37,241 nt of DNA from Dehalococcoidia bacterium. GTDB taxonomy: Bacteria > Chloroflexota > Dehalococcoidia > CAUJGQ01. The stretch spans positions 1 through 37,241 of the forward strand of contig DATGEL010000101.1 of NCBI GenBank assembly GCA_035310145.1. The letters are read 5' to 3'. Made by a program: the position numbers and the translations under genes. This document shows, one piece after another, positions 620 to 27,755 of the stretch (within the stretch, counting starts at the first letter, position 1; each line of letters opens with the position of its first letter). The notes below the pieces were generated by a model, which ran no database searches, was not told the origin of the DNA, and worked only from the letters and a program-made list of their open reading frames with translations.

Positions 620-862
620 GTCGGCCCTTACCCCCTCTCCCTCTCCCAATCCTGGGAGAGGGAGAGGGGCGATCCTGGGGAGGAAGTTCCGCTGCGGTGT
701 CGGGTTGGCAAGGGGTGGTAGGGGCGCACGGCGTGCGCCCTTCGCGCCGCAAGGCGCGAGCAGCAACGATCGGCCAGTCCAACACCATTCCGGATCGCCC
801 GTCGCCGGATTGCCCCTCTCTCCCAATCCTGGGAGAGAGGGGAAGGGGGAGTGAGGGCCGAC
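620..862. repeat. Composite palindromic element, type A copy 1
   Basis: This element fills most of the 368-base gap between dnaK and dnaJ, where I see no gene. The ends are imperfect terminal inverted repeats of about 50 bases (GTCGGCCCTTACC on the left; GTGAGGGCCGAC on the right). Each end holds its own hairpin: 17-bp perfect arms at 632-648/653-669 with loop ATCC, and 13-bp arms at 813-825/830-842 with the same loop. Two GC stems lie between them: 722-729/733-740 and 742-748/753-759 (loop GCAA). Copies with the same order of parts lie at 7804-8072 and, reversed, at 27492-27755. It resembles a non-autonomous MITE or REP-type element. It could also attenuate transcription between dnaK and dnaJ, but no T-tract follows. 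Confidence 0.8.
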
Positions 863-6714: not shown

Positions 6715-7839
6715 ATGAAGTTCGGCCTGTTCTACGAGCTGATCGCCCTGCGCCCGCACGACGAGGAGGCGGTGCAACGCGCCTACTGGCAGGCGCTCGA
6801 GCAGATCCAGTACGCCGAGCAGATGGGCTTCGAGTACGTCTGGGAGACCGAGCACCACTTCACCGAGAAGTTCTCCTACTCTTCCGCGCCCGAGCTGTTC
6901 CTCACCGCCGCCGCGGCTCGCACCTCGAAGATCCGCCTGGGCCACGGCGTGGTGCTGCTGACGATGAACCACCCCGTGCGCGCGGCCGAACGCGCCGCCG
7001 TGCTCGATCTGCTCTCCAACGGCCGGCTGGAGTTCGGCACCGGCCGCGGCACCTCTGAGGCGGAGCTGGGCGGCTTCAACATCGACCCCGAGATCTCGCG
7101 CGACATGTGGGAAGAGGCGCTGCACATCATTCCCAGGATGTGGACACAGGACAGCTTCGAGCACCACGGCCGCTTCTGGGAGGTGCCGCCGCGCAACGTG
7201 CTGCCCAAGCCCGTGCAGAAGCCGCACCCGCCGCTCTGGGTCTCGGGCGTCAGCCCGCAGACCTTCGAGATCGCCGCCGACAAGGGGCTGGGCGTACTCT
7301 CCTTCTCGCTCAGCGCGCCGGGACAGTCGGAGAAGGCGGTGGCGATGTACAAGCAGCGGATCAAGAACGCCGAGCCGGCCGGCAGCTTCGTCAACAACAA
7401 CGTCGCCGCCTTCACCGTCACGCTCTGCCTGGAAGACGACGCCGAGGCGAAGCAGGTGGGCGGCTTCGCGGCCGGCGCCTACAAGATGGGGGCGCAGTCG
7501 CTTTACGGCAAGTGGGCGAAGGCCGAGGGCGCCTGGCGCGCCTGGTACGGCCGCGACTACTTTACCGAGGTGGAGACGCCGGCCGACGAGATCGACGCGA
7601 TGGTGAACGACGCCGTCGTCTGCATCGGCGACCCCCAGCGCTGCATCAACGTGATCAAGCACTGGGAAGAGATCGGCGTGGACCAGATCATGTGCCTGAT
7701 GCAGGCGGGCCGCATTCCGCACGAGAAGGTGATGGAGTCGCTGCGCCTCTTCGGCGAGCACATCATCCCCTACTTCAAGAAGCGGGCCGGCGAGGAGGGT
7801 GGCCCTCATAGCCCCCTTCCCCTTCTCTCCCATACATAA
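6715..7839 (+). CDS. LLM-class (luciferase-like) flavin-dependent oxidoreductase
   Basis: The 374-residue luciferase-like monooxygenase starts MKFGLFYELIALRPHDEE. It contains ETEHHFTEKFSYSSAPE, the strand IRLGHGVVLLTMNHPVRAAE, and the family segment LLSNGRLEFGTGRGTSEAE, where the flavin phosphate is usually bound. The reaction is likely oxygenation of an organic substrate using reduced flavin from a partner reductase. No reductase gene is visible nearby. The last 17 residues or so (GGPHSPLPLLSHT at the end) are encoded by the palindromic element that begins at about 7804, so the original stop may have been lost. It is divergent from the family member at 5214-6470. Confidence 0.9.
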   Translation: MKFGLFYELIALRPHDEEAVQRAYWQALEQIQYAEQMGFEYVWETEHHFTEKFSYSSAPELFLTAAAARTSKIRLGHGVVLLTMNHPVRAAERAAVLDLLSNGRLEFGTGRGTSEAELGGFNIDPEISRDMWEEALHIIPRMWTQDSFEHHGRFWEVPPRNVLPKPVQKPHPPLWVSGVSPQTFEIAADKGLGVLSFSLSAPGQSEKAVAMYKQRIKNAEPAGSFVNNNVAAFTVTLCLEDDAEAKQVGGFAAGAYKMGAQSLYGKWAKAEGAWRAWYGRDYFTEVETPADEIDAMVNDAVVCIGDPQRCINVIKHWEEIGVDQIMCLMQAGRIPHEKVMESLRLFGEHIIPYFKKRAGEEGGPHSPLPLLSHT

Positions 7840-8072
7840 CCGGGTTGAGACCGCGACGGGCTGAGTGCTGAAGGGGAGAGAAGGGGCGATCGTGGGGTGT
7901 TGGCGCTGAGTTGGGTTGGGCTCCCAAAGATTGGCAGGGGCGGTTCGTGAACCGCCCGTCGCGGCACAGCCGCGACCAGTAGCGCGCCGCTGCATCGGAA
8001 TCGCCTGAATCCTCCAACCCAGGATCGCCCCTTTCTCCCATCGCGATGGGAGAAAGGGGAAGGGGATAGGGG
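7804..8072. repeat. Composite palindromic element, type A copy 2
   Basis: This element lies between the LLM oxidoreductase and the acyl-CoA dehydrogenase. Its left hairpin has perfect 12-bp arms at 7819-7830/7875-7886. The right end is a perfect 32-base palindrome at 8028-8059 with no loop. Two GC stems lie between: 7938-7946/7949-7957 and 7958-7965/7969-7976. The order of parts equals that of the copy at 620-862, although the stem sequences differ. The left end lies inside the upstream coding sequence (stop at 7839). The right edge, GGGAAGGGGATAGGGGCC, ends 7 bases before the ATG at 8080 and includes its candidate ribosome binding site. Confidence 0.8.
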
Positions 8073-8079
8073 CCAGCTC

Positions 8080-9273
8080 ATGGACTTCCACTTCTCCGCC
8101 GAGCAGGAGCAGATCCGCGCCGACATTCGCGCCTTTCTGCGCGACAATCTGCCGGCCGAGAATGAAGAGTCGCCGGTCGGCACGGAGTGGAGCGGCGATC
8201 CGGACGAGTGGGCGGCGGCGCTCGCCTTCAACAAGAAGCTGGCCGCGCGCGGCTGGCTCACGGCGCACTGGCCCAAGGAGTACGGCGGCCTCGGCCTCGG
8301 CATCATGGAGCAGGTGGTGCTGCGCGAGGAGATCTCCTACCGCCGCGCGCCGGTGCTCAACGCCAACGGCCTCAACATGCTTGGCCCGGTGCTGATGCTC
8401 TACGGCACGGAAGAGCAGAAGCGGCAGCACCTGCCCGGTATTGCCAGGGCGGAAGTGATGTGGGCGCAGGGCTACTCCGAGCCGAACGCCGGCTCAGACC
8501 TCGCGTCTTTGCAGACGCGCGCCGTGCGCGAGGGCGACGAATACGTGCTTAATGGCAGCAAGATCTGGACGGGCCACGGCGCCACGGCCGACTGGATCTT
8601 CGTGCTCGCCCGCACCGACCCGCAGGCGCCCAAGCACAAGGGCATCTCCTTCTTCCTGCTGCCGATCGACTCGCCCGGCCTCAAGGTCATCAAGCTCCAG
8701 TCGATGACGAACTACGTCCACTTCTGCCAGGAGTACTTCGAGGACGTGCGCGTGCCGCGGCAGAACCTGGTGGGCGAGGAGAACCAGGGCTGGTACATCG
8801 GCGCCGCGTTGCTCGACTTCGAGCGCTCCGGCATCGGCAGTGCCGCCGGCATGCGCCGCACGCTGGAAGACCTGATCGCCTTCGTCAAGGAAAACGCCGC
8901 GGTCGGCCGGCCCGCCACGGCGGAACGGCGCGAGCAGATCCGCCGCAAGATCGCCGACCGCTGGATCGAGACGGCGATCGGCCGCAACCTCTCGTATCGC
9001 ATCGCCTCGGTTCAGGCCGCGGGCAAGATCCCGAACTACGAGGCCTCGATGGGCAAAGTCTTCTCGTCGGAGCTGGGCGCGCGCCTCGCCTGGACCGGCT
9101 TCGAGGTGCTCGGCCTCTACGGCCACCTGCGCGAGACGGACAGGTACGCGAAGCTGCGCGGCCGCTTCGGCCTGGGCACGCAGACCTACCTGACCTCGAC
9201 GATCGGCGGCGGCACCAGCGAGATCCAGCGCAACATCATCGCCACGCGCGGGCTGGGGCTGCCGCGGGGATAG
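8080..9273 (+). CDS. Acyl-CoA dehydrogenase family protein
   Basis: The 397-residue flavoprotein is predicted to introduce a double bond into an acyl-CoA, passing electrons to electron-transfer flavoprotein. The N-terminal helical domain starts MDFHFSAEQEQIRADIRAFL. The middle beta domain holds QGYSEPNAGSDLASLQTRA (FAD and substrate contact), and the C-terminal domain ends GGGTSEIQRNIIATRGLGLP. In MCAD-type enzymes the catalytic Glu sits just before the GTS; here that place is Gly, so the base must lie elsewhere or a partner subunit is needed. No adjacent second ACAD gene is present. The ribosome binding region comes from the repeat upstream. Confidence 0.92.
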   Translation: MDFHFSAEQEQIRADIRAFLRDNLPAENEESPVGTEWSGDPDEWAAALAFNKKLAARGWLTAHWPKEYGGLGLGIMEQVVLREEISYRRAPVLNANGLNMLGPVLMLYGTEEQKRQHLPGIARAEVMWAQGYSEPNAGSDLASLQTRAVREGDEYVLNGSKIWTGHGATADWIFVLARTDPQAPKHKGISFFLLPIDSPGLKVIKLQSMTNYVHFCQEYFEDVRVPRQNLVGEENQGWYIGAALLDFERSGIGSAAGMRRTLEDLIAFVKENAAVGRPATAERREQIRRKIADRWIETAIGRNLSYRIASVQAAGKIPNYEASMGKVFSSELGARLAWTGFEVLGLYGHLRETDRYAKLRGRFGLGTQTYLTSTIGGGTSEIQRNIIATRGLGLPRG

Positions 9274-17302: not shown

Positions 17303-17416
17303 GTTTCTACGAACAACCTTCGTGAGCAGGAAATAGTCTTGAACAGGAAATAGAATGAAGAAAATAGGAAATAGGGACGGCACTCCCCTATTTCCTGGTT
17401 TCTATTTCCTCACCTC
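17303..17416 (-). repeat. A/T-rich inverted-repeat element (GGAAATAG family), copy 2
   Basis: The whole gap between the cyclase and CoA transferase genes is A/T-rich. On the minus strand it reads GAGGAAATAGAAACCAGG, then AATAGGGGAGTGCCGTCCCTATT (a compact hairpin around GGGAGTGC), followed by CTATTTCCTG units. The order of motifs equals that at 9274-9381. As there, it lies between two same-strand genes. The ATG at 17302 has only a weak ribosome binding site (AAGG, 14 bases upstream). Confidence 0.65.
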
Positions 17417-18433: not shown

Positions 18434-18499
18434 GGCCTCACCCCCCGGCCCCCTCTCCAGTTTCCCATCGCGCGGGGCGCGATCTCGGATGGAGAGGGG
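18434..18499 (-). repeat. Palindromic element abutting the 18433 start codon (minus strand)
   Basis: Outer arms CCCCTCTCC (18450-18458) and GGAGAGGGG (18491-18499) enclose the stem ATCGCGC-GGG-GCGCGAT (18467-18483). On the minus strand the element ends GGGGGGTGAGGCC directly before the ATG of the cyclase gene. It is the minus-strand counterpart of 11149-11222. Confidence 0.75.
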
Positions 18500-18519
18500 A
18501 GGCTATGGTACTTGGTTTC

Positions 18520-24217: not shown

Positions 24218-24303
24218 GTTAGACATGGTTTCAATACCGGCTCGCGTTCCCCCTTGCAGGTGCGCGATCGCACGTGAACGCGGTTTTGAAACCATCTGTT
24301 AAC
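24218..24303. other. Long nested inverted repeat, possible structured RNA or cruciform
   Basis: Three concentric stems lie in one 86-base stretch: ATGGTTTCAA (24225-24234) with TTGAAACCAT (24286-24295), 10 bp perfect; CGCGTTC (24243-24249) with GAACGCG (24276-24282); and GTGCG (24260-24264) with CGCAC (24269-24273), loop CGAT. GTTA/TAAC can extend the base. It lies in the 561-base divergent region between the signal peptidase and DUF1800 genes, where no gene is recognised. It has no terminal T-tract, so a terminator is not obvious. Confidence 0.6.
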
Positions 24304-26166: not shown

Positions 26167-26261
26167 GGTTAAGGAATGGTGGACTGTGGCACCGCCTTAA
26201 CCAATACAACACCGCAGTTCCCCCTCTCCATTTCATGGAGAGGGGGCCAGGGGGTGAGGCC
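26167..26261 (+). repeat. Palindromic element abutting the DUF1501 start codon
   Basis: A first inverted repeat GGTTAAGG (26167-26174)/CCTTAACC (26195-26202) is followed by a hairpin with 12-bp perfect arms, CCCCCTCTCCAT (26220-26231) and ATGGAGAGGGGG (26235-26246), loop TTC. The end CCAGGGGGTGAGGCC touches the ATG at 26262. Left and right edges match the element at 11149-11222 almost exactly. Confidence 0.78.
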
Positions 26262-27491: not shown

Positions 27492-27755
27492 GCTGCCCTT
27501 ACTCCCATACACAGGCGATAGGAGATCCACCACGCTCAACGAGCGTATGGGCGAGAGAAGCGGACCGAGCCGAGCTGCGGCTTTCCGGTGCGCCGTAGGT
27601 CGCGCCACGCGGCGCGAAGGGCGCACAAGTCGCGCACCCACAATCGACAGCTAACCCGACGCCCCCGGTACTTCTCCAGCCGGATCGCCCCACTCCCTCT
27701 CCCAGGATTGGGAGAGGGACCAGTAGAAGATCACGGGGGTGAGGATGAGGGCCGA
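27492..27755. repeat. Composite palindromic element, type A copy 3 (reversed)
   Basis: This fills the gap between the convergent DUF1501 and ABC permease genes. Its right hairpin has 10-bp arms (27695-27704/27709-27718, loop GGAT); the inner stems are TCGCGCC-ACGC-GGCGCGA (27600-27617), itself enclosed by GTGCGCC/GGCGCAC (27588-27594/27620-27626); the left part pairs CCCATAC with GTATGGG. The stretch AACCCGAC to CGGATCGCCCC matches the reverse complement of the copy at 620-862. The right edge is GATGAGGGCCGA. Because it sits between converging genes, a ribosome-binding role does not apply here. Confidence 0.75.

Follow-up and report, generated by a model that had tools for sequence, protein, structure and literature searches.

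Results

Repeats of the window and their plan

Three elements of similar construction recur in a contig of a Dehalococcoidia bacterium, which raises the questions of what these elements are and how their copies spread. The window, that is, the whole stretch of 37,241 nucleotides that was analyzed, is one whole contig of a 5.3 Mb genome in 148 contigs. The original prediction described the three as composites of outer hairpins, conserved segments, and two inner stems. Elements with this plan do exist, at positions 621–861, 7800–8075, and 27494–27755, and the stem sequences quoted for them were correct on re-reading. The CGATC(C/G)(T/G)GGG and GTCGGGTTGGC segments are also present, but they are not separate parts of the plan; they belong to a long imperfect terminal inverted repeat, and their reverse complement lies on the other side of the element (GCTAACCCGAC...GGATCGCCCC). 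Read alongside its relatives, each window element is simpler than first described and forms one long imperfect palindrome. In each arm, a box of the GGCCCTCACCCTCACCCCC type at the terminus is followed by a pyrimidine/purine hairpin (CCCCTCTCCCTCTCCCAATCCTGGGAGAGGGAGAGGGG) and then by CGATCCTGGGGAGGAAGTTCCGG...GTCGGGTTAGC; the far side is the reverse complement, and the middle is occupied by variable hairpins.

Copy 1 (type 1; 621–861) is gene-less and has terminal inverted repeats with two outer and two inner hairpins. The left outer hairpin (632–669; CCCCTCTCCCTCTCCCA/TGGGAGAGGGAGAGGGG) has a degenerate outer box of its own. Inner hairpin 1 (722–740; GGGCGCAC/GTGCGCCC) is not conserved across copies, and inner hairpin 2 lies at 742–759 (TCGCGCC/GGCGCGA). 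The right outer hairpin and its mirror box (813–859; arm CCCCTCTCTCCC, box CCCTCACTCCCC on the minus strand) constitute a triplex-type end. Copy 2 has a left arm of type 2, whose hairpin (CTTCTCTCCCATAC) is also found at the DUF559 locus L032, and the right limit of this copy is 4 nt before an ATG at 8080. Two convergent reading frames end on either side of copy 3. The window contains at least three more related pieces. An element at 2100–2289 has its right end, GGGGGTGAGGGCCG, directly before an ATG. A type 3 arm at 18434–18512 (GGCCTCACCCCCCGGCCCCCTCTCCA...GGAGAGGGGAGGCT) resembles the ends of the L033 DUF559 element and abuts a minus-strand start codon, and another type 3 arm, at 26211–26261 on the minus strand, is 90% identical to an end of the same element and abuts the following ATG.

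Element ends are often situated 0 to 5 nt from a start codon (2289, 8080, 18434, and 26262 in the window; loci L271, L272, L276, L279, and L138). There the purine box, as in GGGGGTGAGGCC-ATG, might also serve as a ribosome-binding site. A stop codon immediately precedes many of the other ends. The window also has a second, A-rich inverted repeat at 17345–17410 (GGAAATAGG...CCTATTTCC), apparently of a different family, and a stretch similar to it occurs near an element end at L276. Another inverted repeat is found at 24225–24295 (ATGGTTTCAATACCG/CGGTTTTGAAACCAT, with 41 nt between the arms).

Copies in the rest of the genome were gathered by searches and from short stretches around the matches. 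The pattern CTCTCCC-N4-12-GGGAGAG had 81 exact matches in the genome versus 0 for the reversed control pattern, so the type 1 family is far beyond chance. Forty copies of the window-type element were scored among 253 candidates. Sorted by end type, the repeat families comprised 81 pattern matches for type 1, 10 for type 2, and 40 scored among 95 candidates for type 3. These short palindromes occur as many intergenic copies and also flank DUF559 genes, in the manner of REP/REPIN repeats.

Pairing of the inner stems

According to the original prediction, both inner stems change in sequence between copies yet stay paired, a sign of a conserved RNA or cruciform fold. This is true of copies 1 and 2, but no excess over shuffles was detected in 13 full-length cores: stem 1 was paired in 63% of cells (shuffle mean 60%, maximum 68%) and stem 2 in 84% (mean 78%, maximum 85%). 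Within stem 2, a single base pair alternates between C-G and G-C. The inner cores are mosaic between copies, and some copies have unrelated hairpins, or none, at this place. When the window was searched with Rfam at the gathering threshold, only a tRNA was matched, with no family match for the elements. The wider idea, that the fold matters in these mobile-element-like palindromic repeats, is nevertheless upheld, with its support coming from the ends of the elements, where the hairpin and the third strand covary.

Triplex-type ends

Each end consists of a hairpin and a box that mirrors the hairpin arm, which is the BoxC/PIT/TM intrastrand-triplex motif. The terminal box is a mirror image of the arm in which A replaces some T, and the spacing between the hairpin and the mirror box is usually 3 nt. 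Arm and box change together: CCCCTCTCCCTCTCCC occurs with CCCTCACCCTCACCCC, CCCCTCTCCTTCTCCC with CCCTCATCCTCACCCC, and CCCCTTCTCTCCC with CCCTCACAACCCC, and further such pairs are CCCCTCTCTCCC with CCCTCACTCCCC and CCCCTCCCTCTCCC with CCCTCACCCTCCCC. Within the genome, the box-arm score was 0.748 compared with 0.574 ± 0.014 after boxes were swapped between copies (300 permutations). For 33 arm variants with one entry each, the score was 0.869 versus 0.628 ± 0.030, a value matched by 0 of 2000 permutations, and this figure is optimistic because the best-fitting box was used for each arm. Mirror order was better than direct order by 77 to 8 in the same test. At DUF559 loci across phyla, the score was 0.571 versus 0.427 ± 0.009. 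The p-values of these permutations are optimistic because the copies are related by descent, and the range of distinct matched arm/box variants is a firmer argument than the permutation numbers.

These features indicate that a single strand of each end can, by its predicted pairing, fold into an intrastrand triplex. Triplex formation in solution was shown for the E. coli motif (PMC4666352). RNA has been reported not to form purine-motif triplexes (PMC4666352), and the covariation at the ends therefore points to a DNA triplex and not to an RNA fold.

DUF559 genes adjoin the ends in this genome

The original prediction also compared the elements with REP/MITE repeats whose enzyme is encoded elsewhere in the genome. 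The resemblance in plan stands, whereas the tyrosine transposase (RAYT) does not: a search for Y1 tyrosine transposase/RAYT (PF01797) gave 0 matches in the genome, and control genomes gave matches. We then tested whether genes for DUF559 nucleases, as suspected, commonly have repeats of this kind on their borders. The DUF559 (PF04480) matches in this genome are above the curated cut-off with the catalytic residues present, and all four genes adjoin triplex-type ends. At L033 the order is box-hairpin-gene-hairpin-box; at L031 and L032 the genes lie between full elements; and at L034 the gene is broken and a single arm adjoins it. The three intact genes bear the ends of the three repeat families of the genome (types 1, 2, and 3). 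At L032 (approximately 1150–1390), one full element beside the gene seems to be interrupted by a small inverted-repeat element (AAGGCGTGTCCGACAATTG...TTATCGGACACGCCCTAA).

DUF559 loci across bacteria

A scan of bacterial genomes yielded 80 DUF559 loci, found by their similarity to the genes of this genome, a route that under-samples remote DUF559 groups. The two flanks of each locus were compared for an inverted repeat. With the score threshold fixed, flanking inverted repeats were detected for 50 of 79 DUF559 genes, from many phyla, versus 1 of 193 other ORFs at the same loci (Fisher p = 1e-32); the sole control ORF that passed itself sits between BoxC-like hairpins. Approximately one-third of the DUF559 loci fell under the score cut-off, which counts against the mobile-element reading. 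In the class of the window, inverted repeats bracket DUF559 in 14 of 20 readable loci. The element is typically 420 to 560 bp in size, and no gene other than DUF559 was found inside such ends. In Sphingomonas PAMC 26605 there are ten DUF559 genes, which are divergent copies, and each of those read had its own distinct ends, the left like the right. Within a genome, the elements occupy many distinct sites.

A strong DUF559 match was present in 37 of 119 genomes of the class of the window. The median number of hairpins per genome was 22 with DUF559 versus 2 without it (p = 3e-6); 9 of the 82 genomes without a strong match nonetheless have 20 or more hairpins, a further point against the element reading. 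In phages, only two weak DUF559 matches were found. At a Neisseria gonorrhoeae locus (L132), the DUF559 gene with a solved structure (3HRL) lies between similar hairpin motifs in direct, not inverted, orientation. At E. coli sapF-ycjD-fabI (L140 and L204), the last part of the ycjD frame runs into a BoxC-like motif, with another such motif downstream.

Presence and absence between related species

In Sphingomonas, DUF559 elements occur at several sites, including pntAA-pntAB, and are missing from the same sites in sister species. One intergenic gap was followed through one genus of the class of the window: genome G230 has a 445-bp DUF559 element there, G260 a 135-bp gene-less element, G274 a near-identical gene-less one, and G245 and G212 hairpin remnants only. 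Compared with a DUF559 element located elsewhere in G260, the 135-bp element matches at 44 of 45 aligned positions in the left end and 51 of 60 in the right end. Its own two ends match at 36 of 45, and because they differ in this way, it looks like a deletion derivative. At one intergenic site common to G230 and G274 (L299 and L314), the DUF559 elements of the two congeners differ in their ends, which looks like replacement of one element by the other. In the comparisons for target-site duplications (Sphingomonas, the Chloroflexota class, and Azospirillum), neither a duplication nor an exact junction was legible, as the flanks were too diverged or all sites were filled. The ycjD gene is missing from many E. 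coli strains; such strains were considered as a clean empty site and ruled out, with an efflux operon beside fabI in the two strains read.

The DUF559 protein

Judged from its sequence, DUF559 is a small single-domain Vsr-like PD-(D/E)XK nuclease. Across 97 loci there is virtually no variation at the residues E, W, FRRQ, D-F, E-x-D-G, H, D, and R. A structure predicted from an alignment without database sequences had a pLDDT of 91.9, and its fold is nearest to 3HRL (the N. gonorrhoeae endonuclease-like protein), followed by the homing endonuclease I-Bth0305I and, after it, Vsr. The relation to I-Bth0305I (3R3P) was found by sequence (E 5e-5) and by Foldseek (E 2e-4). The Caulobacter DUF559 protein VsrA has been reported to trigger an SOS response when a methyltransferase is missing (PMC12907096); thus, at least one DUF559 member appears to act on DNA in cells.

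Discussion

We consider it probable that the window repeats are non-autonomous copies of a minimal mobile element composed of a DUF559 gene between triplex-forming inverted ends. This reading draws on the observed architecture, the association with DUF559, the three-strand covariation, the presence and absence between species, and the matching of genes to repeat families. We infer that DUF559 is the mobilizing enzyme and that mobilization has cleavage and joining steps. Against such a role, Vsr, a known relative of DUF559, is a repair enzyme, and, to our knowledge, hydrolytic PD-(D/E)XK nucleases do not join strands. A complete element of approximately 420 to 560 bp would carry one DUF559 gene and inverted ends, each with a hairpin and a purine mirror box. 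The end would fold when single-stranded, for example, in replication, and the element's own nuclease would recognize the folded end and nick or cut beside it. Host repair could then copy or join the freed element into a new intergenic gap, and gene-less copies would be moved in trans by a nuclease that shares the same ends. The broader proposition, for which we hold the chances to be even, is that DUF559 elements constitute a new class of transposable element, with three-stranded ends cut by a Vsr-like nuclease and no known transposase chemistry, and that this class is the source of BoxC/PIT/TM repeats in bacteria at large, E. coli included. That DUF559 elements gave rise to the long-known BoxC triplex repeats is plausible.

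DUF559 could instead be a passenger or homing-type rider, with the repeats spreading by host processes such as replication slippage, template switching, and recombination and DUF559 spreading by cutting at or near them. The homing endonuclease domain that is nearest in fold and sequence, the genomes with many hairpins and no DUF559, and the directly oriented Neisseria motifs all agree with such a rider. We regard it as rather unlikely, because every DUF559 gene has its own pair of ends, left like right and differing between genes within a genome, and because gene-less copies retain both distinct ends of a DUF559 element. A Vsr-like repair or control protein that keeps damage at unstable triplex repeats in check, and hence stays beside them, would account for the Vsr-like fold; triplex repeats have been linked to genome instability (PMC4666352), and the Caulobacter protein has been proposed to repair mismatches (PMC12907096). 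However, a control protein that acts in trans has no need of inverted repeats on both sides, a genome can have as many as ten divergent copies, and presence varies by site between related species, which makes this role improbable.

Strong predicted folds and the position of elements next to stop and start codons would suit a structured RNA or a transcription terminator whose hairpins act in the transcript. We think this very improbable given the lack of an Rfam match, inner-stem covariation not above shuffle, and a mirror-box relation in keeping with purine-motif triplexes, which reportedly do not arise in RNA (PMC4666352); moreover, tests in E. coli found neither promoter nor terminator activity (PMC4666352). 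That a RAYT or DDE transposase moves these repeats as classical MITEs or REPs is hardly credible: the repeats are palindromic, intergenic, and multi-copy with terminal inverted repeats, as such elements are, but the genome is without Y1_Tnp, and the gene found between such ends is DUF559.

If the mobile-element reading is true, it adds a class of mobile element with a non-transposase enzyme and DNA-triplex ends, explains a large share of the GC-rich palindromes in many genomes, and turns many genes annotated as DUF559 "endonuclease domain," including solitary Vsr-like repair genes, into element genes. The link between DUF559 and BoxC/PIT lends itself to a direct test in a simple host.

Comparison with known systems

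BoxC/PIT repeats have been known from E. coli since the 1990s, and over 260 genomes were later reported to have them; their spread was without explanation, and no mobility gene was found near BoxC/PIT/TM repeats in earlier work (PMC4666352). The window repeats share with them (Holder et al. 2015, PMC4666352) the hairpin with a mirror purine box, the intergenic location, the frequent inverted pairs, and the wide distribution in bacteria; they differ in that the motifs here bound DUF559 elements, occur in sequence variants that covary, and belong to a longer composite body. The REP/REPIN-RAYT system (PMC3733652) likewise combines many short palindromic gene-less copies with one enzyme gene flanked by the same palindromes, whereas the enzyme here is a PD-(D/E)XK Vsr-like nuclease instead of an HUH Y1 enzyme, and the ends are triplex motifs. 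The present system is akin in its working to a REPIN/RAYT pair; it lacks the Y1 enzyme that defines such pairs and so does not count as one. I-Bth0305I (3R3P) is similar in being a small selfish gene with a related nuclease domain; it is intron-borne and site-specific, whereas DUF559 elements have inverted hairpin ends and gene-less derivatives. E. coli YcjD, N. gonorrhoeae NGO0050 (3HRL), and Caulobacter VsrA (PMC12907096) have the DUF559 domain and, unlike the DUF559 elements here, are not described as element-borne. The YcjD and Neisseria genes lie beside BoxC-like motifs, as do the DUF559 genes of this genome, although at sapF-fabI, in the strains read, such motifs are on one side only. 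In the searchable literature, which excluded bioRxiv and most subscription journals, DUF559 was absent from titles and abstracts and had no link to these repeats. The window repeats taken alone are of the BoxC/TM kind, and we rate the combination of the DUF559 enzyme with triplex ends as the novelty of the system.
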